Part shown: positions 25,737-42,170 of the stretch, in pieces
How positions within the stretch are numbered: the first letter of the stretch is position 1
Layout: each line of letters opens with the position of its first letter
Source of the DNA: an uncultured Oscillospiraceae bacterium
GTDB lineage: Bacteria; Bacillota; Clostridia; Oscillospirales; Oscillospiraceae
DNA length: 42,469 nt
Assembly (NCBI GenBank): GCA_946546815.1
Contig: CAMNOL010000006.1
Location: 1 to 42,469 of the forward strand
Reading direction: 5' to 3'
Position numbers and translations under genes: made by a program
The notes under the pieces: generated by a model
Seen by the model: the letters and a program-made list of their open reading frames with translations, nothing else
Told to the model about the DNA's origin: nothing
The model's database searches: none

Positions 25737-27479
25737 TTACAACGAAGGGGAGTCGGTGCTCTTCAGCAGCACCGCGCTCATGGGCGGCAGCGAGAGCTTC
25801 AGCAGGCCCTCTGCGGGGGTGAGGGTGCCCTTGCTGCCCCGGTTCATTCCGCCGTACACGCCGGAGTCCGTGGACAGAAGCACCTCGTAGGATGTCCCGT
25901 GGACCGGAACACTCAGATCTTCCATGCCGGTGAGGGAGAAGCACACTGCGGTGTAGTACTCCGTGCCGTCGGTGCCAAGGCGTTTGTACACCATGGTCTG
26001 GTCAACGCCCTCGTCCCGCACCACCTGGAAGGTGGCGGCGGCGCGCAGCTCCCACAGGGCCGGGGTGGCCAGGAACAGCGCGTTGGCGTCCCGGAAAAAC
26101 CGCTGCTGACGCTGGTAAAAGTCGTACTGCAGCAGGTGCCAGTCCAGAGACTGGAGGCAGTTCCAGCTGTTCCACTGGCCGAATTCCGTGCCCATCATGG
26201 TGAGCTTCCGGCCCGGGTGGGTCAGCAGGAACAGGTAAAAGGCCCGTGCCTGGGCAAACTTGGTGGCGTCATCTCCCTGCATCCTGGCCACCAGGGAGGG
26301 CCGGGGGGCTTTGACGATGTCATGGGAGATGGGGAGAATGCAGAAGGGGGTGGAGGGCTTGACACACTGGAAAATCGGGTCGGTCCGCTGGGGGTTGGTG
26401 ATGCGGGAGAGCATCCGTTTCACCCAGGCGGAGTACCAGAAACGGCCGGTGTCCCCCACAATGGAGGGGGTTCCCATGGCCTCCGCCCGGTAGGGGAACT
26501 CCTGCCGGAGGGCGGCGGAGACCCGGTGCATCAGGGGGAGATTGTCCACCGCGATGCTGGTGCCAAAAAAGCCGTCCAAATGGAAGGTTTTCATCCAGAA
26601 GAACACGGAAGAAACGACAAAATTCTCCACTTCCGGCCGGGAAAAATCGAAGCGCTCCAGCTCCATATTGGGGTCCTTGGCGGAGGGGATGCCGTAGCAG
26701 GGGGTTCCGTCGAACTGCCCCAGGGCGAAGGAGGCCCGGGAGAAGCCGAAGGAGGAGCTGTCCATGACCACGCTGATGCCGGCCTGATGGAGCTGATCCA
26801 CCAGGTACATGAAATCAGTGGGGGTGCCGAACCGGGAGGTGACGGCAAAGTAGCCGCTCTCCTGATAGCCCAGGCTCTCGTCGTCCGGGTGCTCGCCCAT
26901 GGGCAGCAGCAGCACGCCGGTGTAGCCCATTTCCTTCACATAAGGCACCAGATAGCTGGCGATGGTGCGGTAATTCATCACCTGCCCCTCGGCGGTGCGC
27001 CGCCAGGAGCCCAGATGCACCTCGTACAGATTGACGGGCTGGTCCGTGCCCACCACCCGCTTGCGGTAGGCGGTCCAGCACTCATCGCCCCAGTGGTAGC
27101 CGGACAGGTCGTAAAGCTTGGAGGCGGTGCCGGGCCGGGTGGCGGCGTGGAAGGCGTAGGGGTCGGCCTTGTACAGCCACTCCCCCCTGATGGTGTGAAT
27201 GGCGTATTGATAAGGGTCATACTGGTGGAGACCCGGGATGAAGCGGTACCAGATGCCGCCGTGGGAGCGGTCCATGGGGTGCCGGGTCGGGTCCCAGCCG
27301 TTGAAATCGCCCACCACGGAGACCGCCCTTGCGTTGGGCGCCCAGACCCGGAACATCCAGCCGGCCTGACCGTTTTCCTCGGCGGGATGCGCTCCCATAA
27401 AATGGTAGCAATCATAACAGCCGGGGACGGAAAGCTGCTTTTTTCCGGAAGAAGTGGGGGCGTATGGTTTTAAATTCAT
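25737..27479 (-). CDS. GlgB-like GH13 protein with degenerate catalytic site
   Basis: 580 residues with the architecture of 1,4-alpha-glucan branching enzyme: an N-terminal CBM48 (FRVWAPNARAVSVVGDFNGWDP), a GH13 barrel and a C-terminal beta domain. The key sites have changed. Region II, normally DGLRVDAV with the nucleophile Asp, reads DGFFGTSI, with Thr307 at the nucleophile position and the preceding Arg lost. Region I reads DSSSFGFSR in place of DWVPAHFP. Region III keeps a Glu (AEAMG, Glu333) and region IV keeps SHD (Asp387) but reads SHDIVKAP in place of SHDEVVHG. The distance between regions II and III is 26 residues against about 53 in E. coli GlgB. The frame is intact and begins the glycogen cluster, so it may be a conserved non-catalytic glycogen-binding protein. 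Start ATG 27479 follows AGGAG. Confidence 0.85.
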   Translation of the reverse strand: MNLKPYAPTSSGKKQLSVPGCYDCYHFMGAHPAEENGQAGWMFRVWAPNARAVSVVGDFNGWDPTRHPMDRSHGGIWYRFIPGLHQYDPYQYAIHTIRGEWLYKADPYAFHAATRPGTASKLYDLSGYHWGDECWTAYRKRVVGTDQPVNLYEVHLGSWRRTAEGQVMNYRTIASYLVPYVKEMGYTGVLLLPMGEHPDDESLGYQESGYFAVTSRFGTPTDFMYLVDQLHQAGISVVMDSSSFGFSRASFALGQFDGTPCYGIPSAKDPNMELERFDFSRPEVENFVVSSVFFWMKTFHLDGFFGTSIAVDNLPLMHRVSAALRQEFPYRAEAMGTPSIVGDTGRFWYSAWVKRMLSRITNPQRTDPIFQCVKPSTPFCILPISHDIVKAPRPSLVARMQGDDATKFAQARAFYLFLLTHPGRKLTMMGTEFGQWNSWNCLQSLDWHLLQYDFYQRQQRFFRDANALFLATPALWELRAAATFQVVRDEGVDQTMVYKRLGTDGTEYYTAVCFSLTGMEDLSVPVHGTSYEVLLSTDSGVYGGMNRGSKGTLTPAEGLLKLSLPPMSAVLLKSTDSPSL

Positions 27480-27570
27480 GGGCAATCTCCTAAAGTGTTT
27501 TGTAAAAAACTGGCCGGATTTCTGGAATGGTGACAGAAGTGCAGGGAGAAGCCCGGTTACCTTTGTTCAA

Positions 27571-27691: not shown

Positions 27692-27723
27692 AAAAAATCA
27701 CAGGCCCCGGCAGGAGCCTGTGA
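27692..27723 (-). terminator. Terminator of the YdjM-type gene
   Basis: TCACAGGC (27698-27705) pairs with GCCTGTGA (27716-27723) around a 10-base loop, with six T on the minus strand at 27692-27697. Confidence 0.88.
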
Positions 27724-27809
27724 CGAATTGCCTGTTGACTTGACACGGCCATGCATCCGTTCCCAGTATTGCGAAGAAAACCGGCCTTTATTCAGCGGAT
27801 GGGCGGCGG

Positions 27810-28421
27810 TTAAAAAGGGAAAATCTTCCACAGGGAAAGGGCCAGTCCGGCTCCGGCCAGAAGGGAGCCGATCAGGCAGATCTGGTCGTTGAGGCGGCCC
27901 TGGGAGGAGCACAGACGGAAGCACAGTCCCCAGTCCAGCGGGTAGAGCAGCTGCACCTTGCGCCGGTTCAGCAGGTCCAGCAGGATGTGGGAGGCCATGG
28001 CGTAGGAAAAGGCCGGGGTCAGCGCAGGGAAAATGTCCCACACCAGCACCGACAGCAGCGCCCAGCAGGGGATGGAGTGCATGAAGGAGCGGTGGGGCTG
28101 GCGCATACCGAAGCTGCACACCCCCAGAATCACCGCCAGTCCCAGCAGCACCCGCATCAGGCTGGTCTGCCGCTGCAGCAGCCGCACAACGCCCAGACCG
28201 TAGTGGACCTCCAGCGCCGCGATCAGGGTGGCGGCCACTGTGAGCACGGAGAGCAGGGTGGTCAGCTCCTTGTGGGACTTGCTGGAGGAGGAGTCGATGT
28301 CGCAGATCACTGACCCCACCGCCGCCGCGCCGGTGCAAAGCAGCAGCTCCTGAGGGGTGGAGGGCAGGGTCAGCAGCAGCGCGGTGGCCTCGCCCACGAC
28401 AAAATGGGTTTTTCCGGTCAT
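27810..28421 (-). CDS. YdjM-type membrane protein (predicted metal-dependent hydrolase)
   Basis: A 203-residue integral membrane protein of the YdjM/DUF457 family. It begins with GKTHFVVGEATALL, then a GSVICDIDSSSSKSHK motif, several hydrophobic segments, HRSFMHS and ASHILLDLLN. The conserved His and Asp residues are why the family is predicted to be a membrane-bound hydrolase; E. coli YdjM is LexA-controlled, but no function is established. Start ATG 28421 follows GGAG; the in-frame Met nine codons upstream lacks a ribosome site. It is transcribed alone. Confidence 0.83.
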   Translation of the reverse strand: MTGKTHFVVGEATALLLTLPSTPQELLLCTGAAAVGSVICDIDSSSSKSHKELTTLLSVLTVAATLIAALEVHYGLGVVRLLQRQTSLMRVLLGLAVILGVCSFGMRQPHRSFMHSIPCWALLSVLVWDIFPALTPAFSYAMASHILLDLLNRRKVQLLYPLDWGLCFRLCSSQGRLNDQICLIGSLLAGAGLALSLWKIFPF

Positions 28422-28736
28422 ATTTTTGATTCTCCAAATGATTGACATATGTGGTCACTTTTCCCCTTCGCTGCTGGGAAATAAGTGATAAACAAGGTTG
28501 TTATTTTTCCACAATTCGGTGGTTTTTTCGTGTTGAATCCCCCATCATTATGAATCCATGAGATGGAACGTTTCGGGGATTCTCAAGGGGGACTTTTCAA
28601 AGTCCCCCTTGAGCGGGGTCCGGGTGAGGCCGTCTCGAAAACGTGCCGGTGGCACGTTTTAGGCCGAGTGGGATAAAGCGCCGCAGGCGCCTCCATTCCA
28701 TTACCTGCGCCCCGACAAGGGGGGCAGCGCCCCGAC
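28422..28736. repeat. Stacked palindromes between the YdjM-type and GTPase-NYN genes
   Basis: No gene is seen in these 315 bases. Four hairpins follow one another: a perfect 15-bp palindrome (28582-28596 with 28599-28613), a perfect 10-bp hairpin AAAACGTGCC/GGCACGTTTT (28638-28660), GCGCC/GGCGC (28678-28690) and GC-rich arms near 28707-28734 that contain a GTCGGGGCGC direct repeat on the minus strand. None has a clear T-run for the upstream minus-strand gene. They resemble dispersed intergenic palindromic repeats. Confidence 0.55.
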
Positions 28737-31328
28737 TCACCGGTAGCGCTCCAGCAGGCGCCGGATCTCGCCCTCGGCCTCCTCCACCTCCTGCCGGAAC
28801 ATCCGGGCGGAGACCCGGACGGCGCCGTGGCCCAGGATGATCATCTGCTCCAGCCCGTCGGAGGTGGCCACCCGGACCCGGTAGCGCCGGCCGATCTCGT
28901 AGGTGGTCTTTTCAATGTACATATCTGCAGTTTCCGCCTGTTTTGTGTAAACAACGTAGATATTGCCCCGTTTTTCCACACTTCCTGGGTTGTTTTTCAC
29001 CTTGTAGGCGTCAAAGACCAGGATCACGCCGCAGCCCTTGTAGCCCTGGTAATTGCACAGGATGTTGATGAGGGACTCCCGGGCCGCGTCCAGATCCACC
29101 TTGGACAGGGCGTTCAGCTCCTCCCAGGCGAAAATGATGTTGTAGCCGTCCACCAGCAGGTACTCCTGCACCGGCTGGAGATTCTGAATCAGTTTGATCC
29201 GGCTCTCGGGGTAGCTGTCCAGACTGGTGCGCCCGCCCTTGGGCTGAGGACGAAAGGCCTGCTGCTTGATGGGGCCGTAGGTGCGCTCGAATATTTTTTG
29301 CAGCTCCTTGTCCGATGCCGCCGGCGCCGCCCCGCCCCGGTGAATCACCGTGGGGGCCCCTTCTTCTTCCTCCTCTTCCGGAGCCAGCACTCCGCTGGTG
29401 TCCAGATGGGCGTATTCCGGCACCTTGTCCCACTTTACCACCGTGCCCGCCCCGTGGGAGCAGAACACCGAGTCCGGCGTGTTGTCCACGTCCGCCTCCG
29501 GGTCATAGTGGGCGGCGGCGATGACCTCTTCGGCGTTGTGGCAGCGGCGGTACCCCGCCAGGGAGCAGGACAGCCGTCCCCGTCCCCGGGTGTAGGCGGC
29601 CAGCTCGGCGGCGTAGTCCCCCATGGTGGCCACCGGCGCGCTGCCGGTGAGCACGGCGGTCTCGCCGTTCAGCTCCGGGTCCTCAAATTCCCCCTGCATC
29701 TGCTGGATATCCGACATGGCCCGGCCCAGATTTTCCTGGGGAACCTCCAGACGGAACTGATACCACGGCTCCAGCAGCACGGACCTGGCCTGCATTAGCC
29801 CCTGCCGGACCGCCCGGTAGGTCGCCTGCCGGAAGTCGCCGCCCTCGGTGTGCTTCAGGTGGGCCCGGCCCGTGAGCAGCGTCACCTTCATATCCGTGAT
29901 GGGGGAGCCGGTGAGCACCCCCAGGTGCTCCTTTTCCTCCAAATGGGTGAAAATCAGCCGCTGCCAGTTCAAATCCAGGGTGTCCAGGCTGCACACCGTG
30001 TCAAAGACCAGACCGGAACCCGGCTCCCCCGGCTCCAGCAGCAGGTGCACCTCCGCGTAGTGGCGCAGGGGCTCAAAGTGCCCGATGCCGATGACCGGCG
30101 CCTCGATGGTCTCTTTGTACACGATGGAGCCGGTGCCGAACTTCACATTTAGGCCGAACCGCTCCCGGATGAGGGTCTGTAAAATTTCCAGCTGGACCTG
30201 TCCCATCAGCTGGACGTGGAGCTGCTGCAGCCGGGGGTTCCAGACGATGTGCAGCTGGGGGTCCTCCTCCTCCAGCTCCTTCAGCTGCAAATGGGCGGCG
30301 TGGGCGTCGCAGTCCTTGGGCAGCAGAATCTGGTAGGTCAGCACCGGCTCCAGCACCGGCTGAGTGGAGCCCGCCTCCATGCCAAGCCCCTGTCCCGGAC
30401 GGGTGCGGGTCAGTCCTGTCACCGCACACACCGTTCCCGCAGGGACCTCAGCGGCGGTGGTAAACTTCGCCCCGGAGTACAGGCGCAGCTGGTCCACTTT
30501 TTCTGTCCAATCCTCCCCTGTATCGGTGCGGCCGGAGAGCTGGGTTTTGACCTTCAGGGTGCCGCCGGTGACCTTCAGATAGGTCAGCCGGTTTCCCTGG
30601 CTGTCCCGGGCGATTTTGTACACCCGGGCGCCGAATTCGGCGGGGTAGGAGGGCTGCAGGGTGTATTGCTCGATGCCTCGGAGAAATTCCTCCACGCCCT
30701 CCAGCTTCAGGGCGGAGCCGAACCAGCAGGGGAACACCTTCCGGGCGGCGATGGCGGCGGCGATGGCCTCCGGCTCCAGCGCGCCGGTGTCCAGATACTG
30801 CTCCATCAGCCCCTCGTCGCACATGGACAGCTCGTCCATCAGGGCGTCGGGGTCTGTGCCGGAAAAGGCCACGCAGTTCTCATCCAGCCGGTTTTTCAGG
30901 TCAGACAGCACCTTCTCCCGGTCCGCTCCCGCCAGGTCCATTTTGTTGACAAACAGAAAAACGGGAATTTCATACCGCTTCAGCAGCCGCCACAAGGTCT
31001 CGGTGTGGCTCTGCACCCCGTCGGTGCCGCTGATGACCAGAATGGCGCAGTCCAGCACCTGCAGGGTGCGCTCCATTTCTGCGGAGAAGTCCACGTGGCC
31101 CGGGGTGTCCAGCAGCGTCAGCTCCACGCTGTCCAGGGGCAGGATGGCCTGCTTGGAGAAAATGGTGATGCCCCGCTCCCGCTCCAAGGCGAAGGTGTCC
31201 AGAAAGGCGTCCCCATGGTCCACCCGGCCCAGCTTCTTGATGCTGCCGCTGAGGTACAGCATGGCCTCGGACAGGGTGGTTTTGCCCGCGTCCACGTGGG
31301 CCATGATGCCGATGGTGCGTTTTTTCAT
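28737..31328 (-). CDS. TetM/EF-G-like translational GTPase fused to a Rae1/YacP-type NYN endonuclease domain
   Basis: 863 residues. Residues 1 to about 640 follow the ribosomal-protection (TetM/TetO/TetW) branch of EF-G. G1 is AHVDAGKTT (10-18), switch 1 RERGITI (50-56), G3 DTPGH (74-78), G4 NKMD, then domains II-V. An SVFCSHGAG motif lies after domain V. An acidic linker (six Glu in a row) leads to residues 722-863, which match B. subtilis YacP/Rae1 along their length: LLVDGYN (Asp727), VFDAYKVK (Asp773), ETADMYIEK (Asp802) and VATSDGLEQ (Asp824). Rae1 is the NYN endonuclease that cuts mRNA in the ribosomal A site. The fusion is a single open frame. ATG 31328 is set by GGAAGAGG and the conserved N-terminus. 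Role inferred: A-site delivery of a nuclease. Tetracycline protection is possible but not shown. Confidence 0.93.
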   Translation of the reverse strand: MKKRTIGIMAHVDAGKTTLSEAMLYLSGSIKKLGRVDHGDAFLDTFALERERGITIFSKQAILPLDSVELTLLDTPGHVDFSAEMERTLQVLDCAILVISGTDGVQSHTETLWRLLKRYEIPVFLFVNKMDLAGADREKVLSDLKNRLDENCVAFSGTDPDALMDELSMCDEGLMEQYLDTGALEPEAIAAAIAARKVFPCWFGSALKLEGVEEFLRGIEQYTLQPSYPAEFGARVYKIARDSQGNRLTYLKVTGGTLKVKTQLSGRTDTGEDWTEKVDQLRLYSGAKFTTAAEVPAGTVCAVTGLTRTRPGQGLGMEAGSTQPVLEPVLTYQILLPKDCDAHAAHLQLKELEEEDPQLHIVWNPRLQQLHVQLMGQVQLEILQTLIRERFGLNVKFGTGSIVYKETIEAPVIGIGHFEPLRHYAEVHLLLEPGEPGSGLVFDTVCSLDTLDLNWQRLIFTHLEEKEHLGVLTGSPITDMKVTLLTGRAHLKHTEGGDFRQATYRAVRQGLMQARSVLLEPWYQFRLEVPQENLGRAMSDIQQMQGEFEDPELNGETAVLTGSAPVATMGDYAAELAAYTRGRGRLSCSLAGYRRCHNAEEVIAAAHYDPEADVDNTPDSVFCSHGAGTVVKWDKVPEYAHLDTSGVLAPEEEEEEGAPTVIHRGGAAPAASDKELQKIFERTYGPIKQQAFRPQPKGGRTSLDSYPESRIKLIQNLQPVQEYLLVDGYNIIFAWEELNALSKVDLDAARESLINILCNYQGYKGCGVILVFDAYKVKNNPGSVEKRGNIYVVYTKQAETADMYIEKTTYEIGRRYRVRVATSDGLEQMIILGHGAVRVSARMFRQEVEEAEGEIRRLLERYR

Positions 31329-31424: not shown

Positions 31425-31451
31425 AAAATCCGCCCCGGAATCCGGAGCGGA
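31425..31451 (-). terminator. Terminator of the tryptophan transporter operon
   Basis: A 10-bp stem (31429-31438 with 31442-31451) with a 3-base loop. On the minus strand a T-rich tract follows the stem. A T-run also flanks the plus-strand side, so it could work in both directions. Confidence 0.85.
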
Positions 31452-31469
31452 CTTTTTTCTGGGAAGGGG

Positions 31470-36103: not shown

Positions 36104-39100
36104 TCACTGGCCGATGGAATCGGTCTTGTAGATGAATTTCACGGTGCAGTCTGTGCCGGGCAGGGAGCCGCCGAAGGAGTTGTACTCCCGGGCGAAGTCC
36201 TGAACTGCGTTCAGCCGCTGCCAGGTGCTGTCCAGATCCTCGTCCACGATGTCCTCCAGCTTCTGGATGCCCTCCTCGCTGTACTCGTTGACGCCGTCCA
36301 CCAGGTCGCCGGTGCCGTCCAGCAGTTTTTTGACGCCGTCCAGCAGTGCGGGCAGGTTGTCGTCCAGCTTCTGCGTGCCGTTGGAGAGCTTCTGCATACC
36401 GTCCTTCAACTGGCCTGCGCCGTTGTCCAGCTGCTCCGCCCCGTCCTCCAGATCGGAGGCGCCGTTGTCCAGCTGCTCCACGCCGTCTGCCAGCTCAGGC
36501 ACCTTGCCGGCCACCCGCTGAATGCCGTCGTTCAGCTGACCGGCGCCGGCGCTGGCCTGCTGAGAGCCGTCCTTCAGGCTCTTGGAGCCGGAGAACAGCT
36601 TGGAAGCGCCGTCCTTCAGCGCCTTCAGGCCGCTGATCAGGGCGTTGGAGCCGCTCTCCAGCTGCTCAATGCCCTCGTACACGCCGGGATGCTCCTCGTC
36701 ACCGGACTGCAGACCGGCGGAAATGGTCTTTGCGCCGGTCTGGAGCTGCTCAATGCCCTCGTACACGCCGGGGTGCTCCGCGTCGCCGGATTTCACGCCG
36801 GCGGCCACAGTCTTTGCGCCGCCCTGGAGCTGCTCAATGCCCTCGTACACGCCGGGGTGCTCCTCATCGCCGGATTTCAGCCCGGCGGCGATGGCTGCCG
36901 CCCCCTCATACAGGCCGGGGTGCTCGCTGCTGCCGGTCTTGACATAGGTTCCGGCCACCTGCTCCTTCAGAGCGGATTTCAGGTTCTTTGCGCCGTCGGA
37001 AAGGTGTTCCAGGCTGTCCCCTGCGCCCTTCTTCAGGCCCCCTGCCGCCTTGCCGATGTTCTCGGCATAGGTCTGGATGGTGCCGGCCTGCTTGCTCAGC
37101 TCGTCGGCTGCGCCGCCGGCGCTCTTGACGGCGTCCTTGGCATCGCCTACAGCGCTCTTTGCGCTGCTGACCTTGTCCTTTGCGCTGTCCACATCGGACT
37201 GGGACAGGCCGTCGATGGCCTTCAGCGCGTCCTTGATGGCGTCCTTCTGTTCGTCGGTCAGGTTGTCGTCGTCTTTGATTTTATCCAGCTTGTCGGCGCT
37301 GCTCTTGGCGTCTTTGATGTCCCCGTTGACCTTTTTCAGCTTGTCGGCGGCGTCGTCCAGGGCGTCGTCGGCGGAGCCGACCTTGTCGGCAGCGGTGTCC
37401 AGCTTGCTGTCGGCGTCCTTCAGGCCCTCCGCGGCGTCGCTCAGCTTTTTGGCCGCGCTGCCGATGCCCTCTGCCATGCCGGAGATTTTGTCCAGGTTGT
37501 CGTCGGTGGACTCCTTCAGCTGCTGCGCGCCGCCGGAGATCTGGCTCAGACCCTTCTGGAGCTGGCCGTCGTCGCTGGTCAGCGCGCTGTTGAGCTGGTC
37601 CGCGCCGCTCATGAGCTGTTTCGCCCCGGGAACCAGCCGGTCCTTCACCGAGGACAGCAGCTTCTCTGCGCCGCCGTCCATGGCGTCCAGACCGGGCATC
37701 AGCTTCTGGTCGATGGCGCTGGTCAGGGCGCCGGCCCCGGTATCCATGGTGTCTGCGCCCTCCTTCAGTGCCAGCACGCCCTCCTTCAGGCTGCTTGCGC
37801 CCTGGGGCAGGGCGGAGACCTTCTGCTGCATGGTGCCCAGACCGTCGTCCAGCTGCTTTGCGCCGTCGTTCAGGTCCTTTGCGCCCTCTGCCAGCCGGTC
37901 GGTGCCCTTGGCCAGGTCGTCAGAGCCCTTTGCCAGCTTGGGCACCCCCTGGGTCAGCTGGTCGGTGCCCTTTTTCAGCGCGGAAGTGCCGTCCTTCAGG
38001 TCAGAGGTGCCGTCTTTCAGGGCGGAGGTGCCGTCCTTCAGGTCGCCGGCGCCGTCGTTGAGCTGCTTTGCGCCCTTGTTCAGGTCGTTGACGCCCTTGT
38101 CCAGGTCCCCGGTGCCGTCGCTGAGCTTGCCCATGCCGTCGTTCAGGTCCTCTGCGCCGTCCACCAGCTTCTGGGTGGCATCCTTCAGCTCCGCCATGGA
38201 CTCCTTCAGGTGGTCCACAGAGTTCACGTCGTCCAGATTCAGCTCCTTCAGGGCGTTGTTGGAGGCGACGGTGACCACAGTGGCCAGGGAGAAATCGGTG
38301 ACGTCGGCCTCGATCTCCACGTATTCGGGGATCTCGATGTCAATGGGGTTGCCGTCGGTGCCGGTGAGGGTGTCCAGGCCCAGGGACTCCTCCAGGCCGG
38401 GCATGGCCATGCCCACCACCACGGTGTTCTCGCCGCTGTTGATGACCTCGCCGTGGGTGACGTGAATGCTGGAGGCCTTCTCGTTGTCCAGAATGGTGCC
38501 GGAGACCATGGTGAAGGGCTGGTAGACGGTGACCTTTTTGCCGTTCACCTTCACCTGCTTGGAGGCGTTGTTGGTGTAGTCAAAGTGAATCTTCAGGTGG
38601 CCGGAGGCGCCGTCCAGCTCCTCAGGGGTGACCTTTTTTCCGTCCAGGGTGTAGGTGATGGACACGCTCACCGGCAGCTGCCGGTCCGTGGTGCCCTGAT
38701 AGTACACGTCCGCGCCCTCGGCGTCCCAGGTGATGGTGCCGTCGGGGTTCTCAGTGTAGGAGCCGTCCCCCTTCACGTTGGTCAGGCCGGAGAGGTCGGT
38801 TTTGTCGCTGAGGGACTGGTCGCCCTTTTTGTTCTTCAGCCAGCTGCTGACGATGGTCTTGGTGGCGCTGCCGTTGGCGTCGGCGATGACGTAGACGGTC
38901 TCCTCCTTGCCGCTTTCGCTGCTGTGGGTGGAGAACATCTCATCAGCGGCGGCGGCGACGGCCTCCGCTGCGGCCTGCTCGGCGGGGGTCAGCTCCGTGC
39001 CGGAGGCGCTGGAGTCCGCCTCCACCTCAGCGGCGCTGGCGGAGCAGCCCGTCAGGCAGGACAGCGCCAGGGCCAGGGCCAGAACAAGAGCGGTGATGCG

Positions 39101-39109
39101 TTTGCTCAT
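36104..39109 (-). CDS. Large lipoprotein of Leu-x-x-Gly heptad repeats, partner of an MMPL transporter
   Basis: A 1001-residue exported protein with lipobox LTGC. An N-terminal globular part (about 50-290) is followed by very long stretches of 7-residue repeats with Leu and Gly at fixed places (type: LKDGTSD, LAKGTDR, LNDGAKQ), the X-X-X-Leu-X-X-Gly pattern described for YhgE/Pip and some MMPL proteins. Asp/Ala/Lys-rich helical segments lie in the middle. A 28-residue unit (HPGVYEGIEQLQ type) is repeated nearly exactly. No C-terminal membrane anchor is visible. It lies 56 bases after the transporter gene and shares its promoter. It may form an extracellular rod or periplasm-like conduit for the transporter; that role is inferred. 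ATG 39109 follows AGGATG. Confidence 0.85.
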   Translation of the reverse strand: MSKRITALVLALALALSCLTGCSASAAEVEADSSASGTELTPAEQAAAEAVAAAADEMFSTHSSESGKEETVYVIADANGSATKTIVSSWLKNKKGDQSLSDKTDLSGLTNVKGDGSYTENPDGTITWDAEGADVYYQGTTDRQLPVSVSITYTLDGKKVTPEELDGASGHLKIHFDYTNNASKQVKVNGKKVTVYQPFTMVSGTILDNEKASSIHVTHGEVINSGENTVVVGMAMPGLEESLGLDTLTGTDGNPIDIEIPEYVEIEADVTDFSLATVVTVASNNALKELNLDDVNSVDHLKESMAELKDATQKLVDGAEDLNDGMGKLSDGTGDLDKGVNDLNKGAKQLNDGAGDLKDGTSALKDGTSDLKDGTSALKKGTDQLTQGVPKLAKGSDDLAKGTDRLAEGAKDLNDGAKQLDDGLGTMQQKVSALPQGASSLKEGVLALKEGADTMDTGAGALTSAIDQKLMPGLDAMDGGAEKLLSSVKDRLVPGAKQLMSGADQLNSALTSDDGQLQKGLSQISGGAQQLKESTDDNLDKISGMAEGIGSAAKKLSDAAEGLKDADSKLDTAADKVGSADDALDDAADKLKKVNGDIKDAKSSADKLDKIKDDDNLTDEQKDAIKDALKAIDGLSQSDVDSAKDKVSSAKSAVGDAKDAVKSAGGAADELSKQAGTIQTYAENIGKAAGGLKKGAGDSLEHLSDGAKNLKSALKEQVAGTYVKTGSSEHPGLYEGAAAIAAGLKSGDEEHPGVYEGIEQLQGGAKTVAAGVKSGDAEHPGVYEGIEQLQTGAKTISAGLQSGDEEHPGVYEGIEQLESGSNALISGLKALKDGASKLFSGSKSLKDGSQQASAGAGQLNDGIQRVAGKVPELADGVEQLDNGASDLEDGAEQLDNGAGQLKDGMQKLSNGTQKLDDNLPALLDGVKKLLDGTGDLVDGVNEYSEEGIQKLEDIVDEDLDSTWQRLNAVQDFAREYNSFGGSLPGTDCTVKFIYKTDSIGQ
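36662..36935. repeat. 84-bp tandem repeats inside the heptad lipoprotein gene
   Basis: Near-identical copies at spacing 84 bases (anchors at 36667, 36751 and 36835), plus a degenerate copy 63 bases further on. Each 84-bp unit encodes 28 residues, four heptads. The high identity suggests recent duplication and possible length variation between strains. Confidence 0.88.
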
Positions 39110-39165
39110 AGGGATACATCCTTTCGTTTTCAATCGAAATTCAGAAGAAACCATTTACAATGGGA

Positions 39166-41235
39166 TCAGGAACAGTGCCCCATGCCCAGGGTGGTTTTGC
39201 AGATCAGGGGGTCCAGCAGCAGATACATGCTGGGCAGAATGGCGATGACGACCACCATGCTGATCAGAGCGCCCCGCCCCAGCAGCATACAGATGGAGCC
39301 CACCATGTCGGCGGAGGAGTAGAAGCCCACGCCGGCGGTGGCGGCGAAGAAGCCCAGGGCGCTGGTGATGATGGAATGAATAGAGGTGGACAGGGCAATC
39401 TCTGCGGCTTCCGCCTTGCTGCGCCCGTCCATGCGCTCCTTTTTGTACCGGGTGGTCATCAGGATGGCGTAGTCCACGGTGGCGCCCAGCTGAATGGTGC
39501 CCACGCAGACCGAGGCGATAAAGGGCAGCGTCTGGTGGAGATAGAAGGAGGCGCCCATATTGATGTAAATGGCCAGCTCAATGACCAGCACCAGAATAAA
39601 GGGCAGGGAGATGGACTGGAGCACCAGCAGGATCAGCACGAAGATGGCGCCGATGGACACCGCGCTGACCACCGCAAAGTCGTGGTCCGTCACCTGGATC
39701 AGGTCCTTGGTGCAGGCGGTCTCGCCGATGAGCATACCGTTGGGGTCGTAGCGCTTGATGATGGCGCTGAGGGCGTCGCACTGCTGGTTCACCTCGTCGG
39801 TGGCGATCTCGTAGCTGGAGGAGACCATCAGCAGCTTCCAGTTGTCGCTCTCCAGCAGGTCTTTGACCTCGGAGGGCACCAGCTCGGTGGGGAGCATGGA
39901 GCCGATGACGGAGTCCAGACCCATGCAGAAGTTGACGCCGTCCAGGTGTTTGATGGCGTTGGTCATCTGAATGGTGTCCTTGTGGGGCAGGTCGCTGTCC
40001 ACCAGGATCATGGAAATGGAGGACATATCGAAGGCCTCCAGCGCCTTGTTGGCCTGAACGCTGCCCATGGTCTCGGGCAGGCTGGTGTCCAGCTTGTAGT
40101 ACACATCGTAGTGGTTGTTGCCGTAGAAGGCGGGCACCCACAGAATCACCATAATGAGGGCGAAGAGCCGGTAGTGCTTCAGGATGAAGTCGGACAGGCC
40201 CCCGGTGCCGATGCGGAAGGAGCGGTGGGTGGTCCGCTCAATGGCCCGATCCATGACCAGGATAAAGGCGGGCAGCACCGTGACGCAGCTGAGCACGCCG
40301 AAGATGACGCCCTTGGCCATGACAATGCCCAGGTCCATACCCAGGGTAAAGGACATGAAGCACAGGGCGATGAAGCCTGCGATGGTGGTCAGAGAGGAGC
40401 CGGTGATGGAGACGATGGTGGCGGCGATGGCCTCCGCCATGGCTTCCTTCCGGTCCGCGCATTGAGCCTTGTGCTCCTTAAAGCTGGAGTACAGGAAGAT
40501 GGAGTAGTCCAGGGTGACGCCCAGCTGCAGCACCGCCACCAGCGCCATGGTCAGGAAGGAGATCTCCCCCCGGAGGAAGTTGGTGCCCAGGTTGTACAGA
40601 ATGGACATGCCGATGTTCAGCAGGATCACCGCCGGCACCAGGAAGGAGTCCAGCGTCACCGTCAGCACCACCGCGGTGAGCCCGGCGGCGATGACCACGT
40701 ACCAGGGCATCTCCAGTTCGATCAGCTCCTTGGTGTCCTCCACAATGGCGGACATACTGGACAGGAAGCACTGCTTTCCCGCCAGCGCCCGGATCTTCTG
40801 CACGGCCTCCAGCGTCTCGTCGGCGGAGGTGGTGGTGTCCATGAAGATGAACATCAGCGTGCTGTTGCCGTCCTTGGAGTAGAACACGTCCCGGACGGAA
40901 TCCGGCAGCACCTCGGAGGGGACGGACAGGTCCACCAGGGAGTCGTACCAGAGCACCGTGTCCACGTGGTCGATGTGCTCCAGCTGGGTTTTCAGCTTTG
41001 CCGCGTCCTTTGGCTCCATGTCCTCGCAGACAAAGATGGAATAAGCGGCCTTGCCGAACTCGTTGAGCAGGATGTCCTGTCCCTCCATGGTCTCCAGATC
41101 AGAGGGCAGGTAGGACAGAATGTCGTAGTTGATTCTGGTATAAATGATGCCGAACACCGAGGGAATCAGCAGCAAAAAGCTGAGCAGGATGATCGGGATC
41201 CTCAGCTTGACGATCACTTCGCCAAAACGCTTCAT
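39166..41235 (-). CDS. MMPL/RND-family transporter
   Basis: A 689-residue membrane transporter of two similar halves: one membrane helix, a large extracytoplasmic loop (about 35-175; 372-515), then five helices. The proton-relay Asp-Tyr pairs known in MmpL proteins are present in both halves (Asp243-Tyr244 in GVTLDYS and Asp588-Tyr589 in GATVDYA). It is first in an operon with the heptad-repeat lipoprotein and diverges from a TetR gene. The substrate is unknown; lipids, detergents or drugs are typical for the family. GAGGTG precedes the ATG. Confidence 0.93.
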   Translation of the reverse strand: MKRFGEVIVKLRIPIILLSFLLLIPSVFGIIYTRINYDILSYLPSDLETMEGQDILLNEFGKAAYSIFVCEDMEPKDAAKLKTQLEHIDHVDTVLWYDSLVDLSVPSEVLPDSVRDVFYSKDGNSTLMFIFMDTTTSADETLEAVQKIRALAGKQCFLSSMSAIVEDTKELIELEMPWYVVIAAGLTAVVLTVTLDSFLVPAVILLNIGMSILYNLGTNFLRGEISFLTMALVAVLQLGVTLDYSIFLYSSFKEHKAQCADRKEAMAEAIAATIVSITGSSLTTIAGFIALCFMSFTLGMDLGIVMAKGVIFGVLSCVTVLPAFILVMDRAIERTTHRSFRIGTGGLSDFILKHYRLFALIMVILWVPAFYGNNHYDVYYKLDTSLPETMGSVQANKALEAFDMSSISMILVDSDLPHKDTIQMTNAIKHLDGVNFCMGLDSVIGSMLPTELVPSEVKDLLESDNWKLLMVSSSYEIATDEVNQQCDALSAIIKRYDPNGMLIGETACTKDLIQVTDHDFAVVSAVSIGAIFVLILLVLQSISLPFILVLVIELAIYINMGASFYLHQTLPFIASVCVGTIQLGATVDYAILMTTRYKKERMDGRSKAEAAEIALSTSIHSIITSALGFFAATAGVGFYSSADMVGSICMLLGRGALISMVVVIAILPSMYLLLDPLICKTTLGMGHCS

Positions 41236-41567: not shown

Positions 41568-42170
41568 ATGGGAAAGGTGGAAGAGAATAAACAGCAGAAG
41601 CAGGAGCGTCTGCTGGACACGGCGTTTCAGCTGTTCACCACCAAAGGACTGACAAAGACGTCCATTTCCGACATTGTCAACAACGCCGGCGTGGCCAAGG
41701 GCACCTTTTACCTTTATTTTAAGGACAAGTACGACATTGCCAACAAGCTCATCGCCAGGAAGGCCCGGCACCTGTGCCTTCAGGCGCTGGAAAAGCTGGA
41801 CCGCGCCGAACTCACCGATCCCGGGGACCGGCTGATCTTTATCGTGGACGATATTCTCAACCAATTCCAGAAAACCCATATGCTGCTGCGCTTCATCAAC
41901 AAGAACCTGAGCTGGGGAATTTTCAAAAACGCCCTGATCCGGGGCAGCGAGGACCACGACAGGGAGATGGCGGAGCTGTTCCGGCGGATTCTGGGGGATG
42001 ATCTGGAGCATTGGGAGCATCTGGACGCAATGATCTACCTGATCGTGGAAATGGTGGGCAGCAGCTGCTACTCGGTGATCCTGGAGCGGGACCCCATGCC
42101 CCTGGAGGATTTTAAGCCCCATCTGTACCGGTCCATTCGGGCAGTGGTGAAAAGCTTTCAAAAATCGTGA
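41568..42170 (+). CDS. TetR/AcrR-family transcriptional regulator
   Basis: A 200-residue one-component repressor. The N-terminal helix-turn-helix (about 10-58) has the family pattern LLDTAFQLFTTKGLTKTSISDI and AGVAKGTFYLYFKDKYD. The C-terminal ligand domain is divergent. It is divergent from the MMPL transporter operon and three dyads sharing a TGACCG core lie between them, so it most likely represses that operon and responds to a transported compound. GGGAGG precedes the ATG. Confidence 0.93.
   Translation: MGKVEENKQQKQERLLDTAFQLFTTKGLTKTSISDIVNNAGVAKGTFYLYFKDKYDIANKLIARKARHLCLQALEKLDRAELTDPGDRLIFIVDDILNQFQKTHMLLRFINKNLSWGIFKNALIRGSEDHDREMAELFRRILGDDLEHWEHLDAMIYLIVEMVGSSCYSVILERDPMPLEDFKPHLYRSIRAVVKSFQKS

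Follow-up and report, generated by a model that had tools for sequence, protein, structure and literature searches.

A conserved fusion of a translational GTPase with a Rae1/YacP nuclease domain, a probable stand-in for free Rae1 in Clostridia

Here we show that a gene of an uncultured Oscillospiraceae bacterium (GenBank assembly GCA_946546815.1, contig CAMNOL010000006.1, of which the 42,469 nucleotides analysed are hereafter called the window) encodes a translational GTPase joined in one reading frame to a Rae1/YacP-type NYN nuclease domain, which other bacteria produce as a protein of its own, and that this fusion is real, widespread and strongly conserved in Clostridia, many of them from the gut. 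The fused protein probably stands in for stand-alone Rae1 in these bacteria. The reading that we prefer, at a probability of roughly 0.45, is that Rae1 is held at paused ribosomes by a ribosomal GTPase dedicated to it and that the two halves act jointly in the A site, with GTP hydrolysis ordering the exit of domain IV and the entry of the NYN domain.

The fusion architecture is already published: according to the excerpts available of Atkinson 2015 (PMC4342817), a YacP-like NYN RNase domain is found in Tet proteins from ten species of Clostridiales, an RNase-based resistance mechanism was suggested for them, and an earlier proposal cited there has the NYN domain act in rRNA and tRNA maturation. 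Judged by architecture, the protein described here is of the same two-domain kind. It differs from that account, which covers ten species filed under Tet, in being found in 97/291 genomes and in belonging to a subfamily separate from Tet(M/O/W), and we add to it NYN-less relatives, the exclusion of stand-alone Rae1, a missing basic end and a linker motif. Literature text searches returned no functional study of the fusion among the matches listed.

The gene is an intact open reading frame (ORF) of 863 amino acids, P0001, on the minus strand (the plus strand of the stretch has stops). A sequence-only reading of the window had given the interval 28737..31328 without a strand and had described a single open frame joining a GTPase (domains I-V) to a Rae1/YacP domain, which translation and Pfam matches bear out. 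Its parts are:

28737..31328, minus strand: whole fused gene including stop codon, P0001, 863 amino acids (translation, ORF list; same layout in 97/291 genomes)
30663..31328, minus strand: G domain, residues 1-222, motifs AHVDAGKT, RGITI, DTPGH, NKMD and GSALK (Pfam GTP_EFTU at residues 3-222, 176 bits)
30402..30635, minus strand: domain II, residues 232-309 (Pfam EF-G_D2, 21.8 bits, below the 27-bit cut-off)
30135..30350, minus strand: domain III, residues 327-398 (Pfam EFG_III)
29787..30128, minus strand: domain IV, residues 401-514 (Pfam EFG_IV)
29829..29870, minus strand: domain IV loop III, residues 487-500, GRAHLKHTEGGDFR, with the Tet(M/O/W) counterpart GLYYSPVSTPADFR (alignment of 25 proteins)
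29535..29780, minus strand: domain V, residues 517-598 (Pfam EFG_C)
29400..29534, minus strand: C-terminal extension, residues 599-643, a helix, a hairpin with DSVFCSHGAG and a helix (predicted local distance difference test, pLDDT, 83-93; blocks 601-640)
29169..29399, minus strand: disordered linker, residues 644-720 (pLDDT below 50 at 652-719)
29274..29303, minus strand: linker motif LQKIFERTYG, residues 676-685, a helix predicted at low confidence (pattern count, fold model)
28749..29168, minus strand: Rae1/YacP NYN nuclease domain, residues 721-860, with Asp727, Asp773, Asp802 and Asp824 (Pfam NYN_YacP, structure matches)

As expected of the EF-G/EF2 superfamily, P0001 has a G domain with all motifs, whose residues are mostly invariant across 17 fused proteins, and domains II-V in the EF-G fold, domain II being beta-rich and confidently predicted in the fold model. 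That model is confident outside residues 652-719 and a weak stretch at 821-840. The match to NYN_YacP (PF05991) covers residues 724-860 at 1.9e-47 and 161.8 bits, against a Pfam cut-off of 24.6.

The nuclease half carries a complete set of active-site acids. Positions 727, 773, 802 and 824, which the sequence-only reading had singled out as conserved, are Asp in 48/48 fused and 27/27 stand-alone NYN domains, and the free variation of these acids that had been named as a refuting sign was not seen. From these sets 13 duplicate or overlapping loci were excluded and the near relatives L033/L036 and L040/L168 were kept, so the rows are not independent. The B. subtilis YacP structures 5mq8 and 5mq9 match residues 722-859 at 5e-25, and through this match D7 and D81 of Rae1, which we take to be its catalytic residues, align with D727 and D802. 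Residue 775 is Tyr in P0001 (FDAY) versus His in the stand-alone consensus (FDAH). Family knowledge together with this conservation makes it very probable that the NYN half is an active Rae1-type nuclease.

Contrary to what had been claimed, the likeness to Rae1 does not extend along the whole domain: the match stops at position 139 of the 166-position profile, and the C-terminal tail of stand-alone Rae1 is absent. Stand-alone YacP proteins continue for 47-51 residues past the position equal to 841 and close with a basic LExxR(R/K)-type motif (a feature defined in this analysis, not taken from the literature) in 27/27 rows; fused rows have at most 30 residues past that position in 21/48, and the motif occurs in 1/48 (L034 only), not in P0001. 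The net charge of the last 12 residues averages +2.5 in stand-alone versus 0 in fused proteins. Compared with Rae1/YacP, then, the fused form shares the NYN core and all four acids, has no LExxRR-type end and is joined to a GTPase. The missing tail may mean that targeting was transferred from Rae1's basic end to the GTPase.

A search for the same domain pair, which had been suggested as a check, was carried out on 291 Clostridia-class genomes with a GTPase profile spanning domain IV to the extension and derived from 19 fused proteins (132 matches at 1e-30; the tally kept the 122 scoring 250 bits or more and excluded the rest, which are other GTPases or fragments). PF05991 is present in 189 genomes. 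The full fused ORF, 841-937 amino acids long, occurs in 97, pieces broken or cut at contig ends in 8, and NYN-less forms only in 17, 10 of them with a stand-alone YacP and 7 without (one, G237, frame-broken). A further 75 have a PF05991 match without this GTPase family (these include G180, a contig-edge fused fragment, and G248, which lies below the cut-off), and 94 have neither. For 10 of the 97 fused genomes the PF05991 row lies outside the matches listed; the four loci that were read (L161-L164) hold the NYN domain in frame, and in the other six (G041, G099, G107, G198, G202, G276) the fusion is deduced from ORF length and the genome's PF05991 match.

The predicted lack of a separate yacP was borne out: among the PF05991 matches listed, a stand-alone YacP above the Pfam cut-off was found in 0/97 fused genomes. 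Second matches in G136, G201 and G242 score about 21 bits, below the cut-off, G133 has two fused copies, and the source genome has a single PF05991 match, the fused one. The count is uncorrected for kinship, and kinship among the genomes makes the exclusion weigh less than the raw numbers suggest. In a phylum-wide sample, which overlaps the class sample in some genomes, the family was found at 1e-60 in 20/299 genomes, as 18 ORFs of 857-910 amino acids and two of 651 and 657; the named fused relatives are Clostridia. One genome, G121, holds two NYN-less paralogues, L152 and L153.

This distribution refutes the explanation of the fusion as an assembly or frameshift artefact, which had been raised as a possible flaw. 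The fused frame recurs in 97/291 genomes, and a RefSeq protein of Monoglobus pectinilyticus annotated as 'translation factor GTPase family protein' has the fused length. In the same-genus pair L033/L036, the NYN domain has a ratio of nonsynonymous to synonymous substitution rates (dN/dS) of 0.01 and the GTPase one of 0.03, compared with 0.05 in the linker and 0.13 in the short extension; these values rest on one pair, the remaining pairs being too close or mostly saturated. The fused frame is under purifying selection. Mean pairwise identity across 34 fused proteins is highest in domain IV (0.70), followed by the NYN domain (0.57) and the G domain (0.55).

The label 'ribosomal-protection-type' or TetM-like, given to the GTPase half in the sequence-only reading, is not supported. 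In its favour, the top-scoring NCBIfam model for P0001 is tet_protect (NF012153) at 432.6 bits, versus 309.5 for the EF-G model TIGR00484, and by profile P0001 therefore leans towards Tet; both scores lie below their cut-offs (775 and 659.4). A Tet(M) control scores 879.8 bits on tet_protect, and four NYN-less relatives score 370-427. In pairwise comparison, the identity of P0001 is nearly the same with Tet(M) (29%, 246 bits) and with a Clostridium EF-G (28%, 247 bits), and reaches 44% (600 bits) with the NYN-less relative L165. The tip of loop III reads KHTEGG in P0001 versus SPVS in Tet(M), Tet(O) and Tet(W), at equal length, and KHTxGG is found in all subfamily rows printed save three divergent ones (L078 KHTDSQ, L161 KHTEPP, L162 RHTEGG). 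On cut-offs, distance and loop III we reject a Tet(M)-type identity; by sequence comparison the GTPase appears to form its own translational GTPase subfamily, about equidistant from EF-G and Tet(M) in pairwise identity.

With EF-G the protein shares domains I-V, the G motifs and, at the tip of domain IV, an aligned His; its NKxD and SA motifs lie closer together, its domain IV loops differ, and it has the extension, linker and NYN domain in addition. With Tet(M), Tet(O) and Tet(W) it shares EF-G-type domains I-V followed by a C-terminal extension, and is set apart by the 29% identity to Tet(M), the score below cut-off, KHTEGG, the extension's own sequence and the added nuclease. In the alignment, the extension with its DSVFC-HGAG motif is present in the NYN-less relatives and absent from Tet and EF-G, so it is part of the GTPase rather than of the fusion. 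Those relatives, from Clostridium-type genomes, Neobacillus, Intestinibacter, Bifidobacterium and Collinsella, belong to the same GTPase subfamily with a similar loop III and extension, are without linker motif and NYN domain, and have a separate YacP in the genome in 10/17 cases. Ribosome binding by the GTPase half is highly probable from family knowledge and conservation.

Protection of the ribosome against antibiotics, in which the GTPase would remove tetracycline or a similar A-site drug and the nuclease would add to resistance, was weighed against these data. The best NCBIfam match is tet_protect, the fusions were classed as Tet with RNase-based resistance proposed in the excerpts of PMC4342817, and, in those of PMC4750697, Tet(M) has a C-terminal extension and some altered loop III sequences stay active, so that the sequence alone, with a loop III as long as Tet's, is compatible with drug protection; relatives are also found on plasmid records. 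The score of 432.6 is nevertheless far under 775, against 879.8 for Tet(M) itself, Tet(M) and EF-G are equally distant pairwise, and SPVS is replaced by KHTxGG outside L078, L161 and L162. Neighbours offer no fixed-place recurrent gene in 39 loci, although no screen of them was aimed at resistance or mobile genes. We consider drug protection improbable. The plasmid records (H28-H37, Agathobacter and Ligilactobacillus) carry 'TetM/TetW/TetO/TetS family' resistance proteins 40-43% identical to NYN-less L165; from sequence, these may belong to this subfamily and are possibly over-annotated.

A candidate zinc site in the GTPase half (Cys588, Cys596, Cys623 and His625) was weakened by comparison, as Cys588 is absent in 8/8 NYN-less rows and His625 is variable. 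Two divergent fused members, L161 5705-8386 and L162 6013-8532 (G001, G232), keep Cys596 and have lost the other two Cys; their P-loops read ANVDSGKT and ASADTGKT, their NYN acids are intact, and in these two the nuclease may be retained as the GTPase drifts. The NYN-less L075 6001-8223 of Bifidobacterium avesanii has a Gly-, Asp-, Glu- and Lys-rich insert of more than 50 residues inside domain IV.

In a careful tree of 56 rows, the fused proteins and three actinobacterial NYN-less rows form a clade (support 100/99), and the remaining 15 NYN-less proteins group together as sister to this clade with support of 85/37, which is not strong. The Bifidobacterium and Collinsella NYN-less copies nest within the fused clade; a branch that splits the fused rows from all others appears in 0% of the 200 bootstrap trees, and the starred branches require at least two changes of the NYN-less label. 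PF05991 has no match in either Bifidobacterium genome and one in that of Collinsella, in a separate protein of 232 amino acids (91 bits). The position of the actinobacterial copies suggests one fusion followed by later loss. Approximately unbiased (AU) tests on a quick tree did not reject a single clade of the fused rows (p 0.705, the constrained tree being 16 log units better) or a single clade of all 18 NYN-less rows (p 0.411); because neither grouping is rejected, secondary loss of the NYN domain in Actinobacteria is favoured, not proven. Routine loss of the domain, which had been named as a finding that would count against the fusion, is thus seen only to a degree: NYN-less relatives occur in 17/291 genomes, yet 15/18 rows fall in a separate clade and only the three actinobacterial ones look like losses. 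An NYN tree of 46 rows groups fused and stand-alone domains apart, save for one stand-alone domain among the fused, L017 (G243), whose placement has low support and which might be a fission product.

The linker is 67-122 residues long in 34 fused proteins, with a mean pairwise identity of 0.19. Within it, a motif of the form L--IFERTYG was matched by a loose pattern in 32/34 and a stricter one in 26/34 proteins; the stricter pattern averaged 0.07, and at most 2, in 500 shuffles. Both patterns were composed after viewing the alignment, an initial one with wrong spacing having matched 0/34. The NYN-less tails printed stop before the motif's position. The motif may be a latch or a ribosome contact.

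At this length, the linker could let the NYN domain reach past the A site. An arrangement in which the nuclease acts elsewhere, in rRNA or tRNA processing or on mRNA lying between ribosomes that have collided, and is anchored by the GTPase, would accord with this reach and with the earlier proposal for the domain cited in the excerpts of PMC4342817. We hold it to be quite unlikely: the fused NYN domain retains the most conserved residues of stand-alone Rae1, which the excerpts of PMC12320835 report as among the few known bacterial nucleases attacking mRNA in the A site. In the excerpts of PMC11780869, B. subtilis S1025 is given as the first substrate of Rae1.

The chief rival is a loose bifunctional protein, in which GTPase and Rae1 perform independent jobs and the fusion sets local concentration or stoichiometry without coupling to the GTP cycle. 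A long, disordered linker would suit it, as would the separate occurrence of the halves in Clostridia (NYN-less forms only in 17/291, 7 of these without YacP; YacP without this GTPase in 75/291) and the three actinobacterial copies that keep the GTPase without the NYN domain, two of them in Bifidobacterium genomes lacking a PF05991 match. A conserved motif within a variable linker, the absence of Rae1's basic end and the retention of the architecture in 97 genomes speak against it, and on balance we judge it unlikely.

In the joint action at the A site that we infer instead, from ribosome binding and nuclease activity to A-site cleavage, a GTP-dependent order and rescue by transfer-messenger RNA (tmRNA), the GTPase would dock at the factor site of a paused ribosome whose A site is obstructed or unfilled, and its His/Lys/Glu-rich domain IV tip would probe or clear the decoding centre. 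Upon GTP hydrolysis domain IV would withdraw, the tethered NYN domain would enter the vacated A site and cut the mRNA, as proposed for B. subtilis Rae1, and tmRNA, which is present in the source genome, would then rescue the ribosome. The steps are written as sequential since domain IV and an A-site NYN domain would hardly fit the A site together.

Several points weigh against this scheme. The two domains cannot easily occupy the A site at once. In 17/291 genomes the family occurs only as NYN-less relatives, whose domain IV tip and extension are similar, and since 7 of these genomes have no YacP, the GTPase seems to have a nuclease-independent role; such relatives, some without any Rae1 in the genome, weigh most heavily against a strictly joint function. 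Conversely, 75/291 genomes have a PF05991 match without this GTPase family. No fixed-place neighbour indicating ribosome rescue was found in 39 loci, and replaced targeting is only one way in which the missing basic tail may be understood. The observation made in the sequence-only reading is thus confirmed and its interpretation, GTP-driven delivery of a nuclease, is partly supported: an intact Rae1-type active site, a ribosomal-GTPase fold and a stable fusion across Clostridia are supported, the parts and their exclusivity are observed, and we infer the coupling of GTPase and nuclease.

The genes upstream of the fused gene, on the same strand, encode an ABC transporter (substrate-binding protein, permease, ATPase). 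Downstream are a YdjM-family gene (27810-28448), a hairpin, a GlgB-like gene and then genes that, by eye, are of glycogen type. The two hairpins are:

31425..31455, minus strand: terminator-like hairpin separating the fused gene from the ABC transporter genes upstream of it (consensus match only)
27697..27724, minus strand: terminator-like hairpin past the YdjM-family gene (consensus match only)

Over the region, 7 terminator-like hairpins were found versus 7.1 expected in shuffles. Across 39 loci (ORFs of at least 90 amino acids, families common to at least 4 loci) no neighbour family holds a fixed place. Beyond the gene and overlapping frames, the sole recurring cluster covers 7 loci, including the window's upstream ABC ATPase, and varies in side, distance and strand. 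The only translation neighbourhood noticed is that of L035 6448-9093 (G246), where the fused gene follows, by eye, an infB, nrnA, truB, ribF-like cluster. A profile search found two further EFG_IV-domain genes in the source genome, which are taken for EF-G and a second EF-G-like protein. Two viral contigs match the GTPase family (L189 and L190, only L189 examined); L189 opens exactly with the start codon of an NYN-less GTPase gene (1-2181) close to the bifidobacterial L075 and continues with phage-type genes, perhaps a prophage adjoining that gene. A PADLOC search for a defence link returned 0 families.

Elsewhere in the window, the Pfam alpha-amylase match of the GlgB-like protein (25737-27485, minus strand) is confined to residues 155-217 of the part used as query, and the protein is possibly a divergent or degenerate branching enzyme near an apparent glycogen gene cluster. 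A 1016-amino-acid protein (36104-39154, minus strand) consists mostly of LxDGxxxL-type repeats and adjoins a multi-span membrane protein (39166-41235); a regulator-like ORF lies nearby at 41568-42170, the YhgE/MMPL/TetR-type assignments here being by eye only.

By Rosetta-stone reasoning, a natural fusion that excludes free Rae1 is evidence for the ability of a translational GTPase to work with Rae1, and it makes testable the question of whether an attached GTPase controls cleavage. More broadly, and tentatively, the protein may be a GTP-driven quality-control factor of Clostridia, distinct from EF-G and Tet, that delivers a tethered Rae1 and arose by one ancient fusion in which the basic tail was traded for the GTPase, with the linker motif as latch or contact. 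Surveys of resistance genes in the gut may also be affected, as the subfamily members tested score below the Tet cut-offs.

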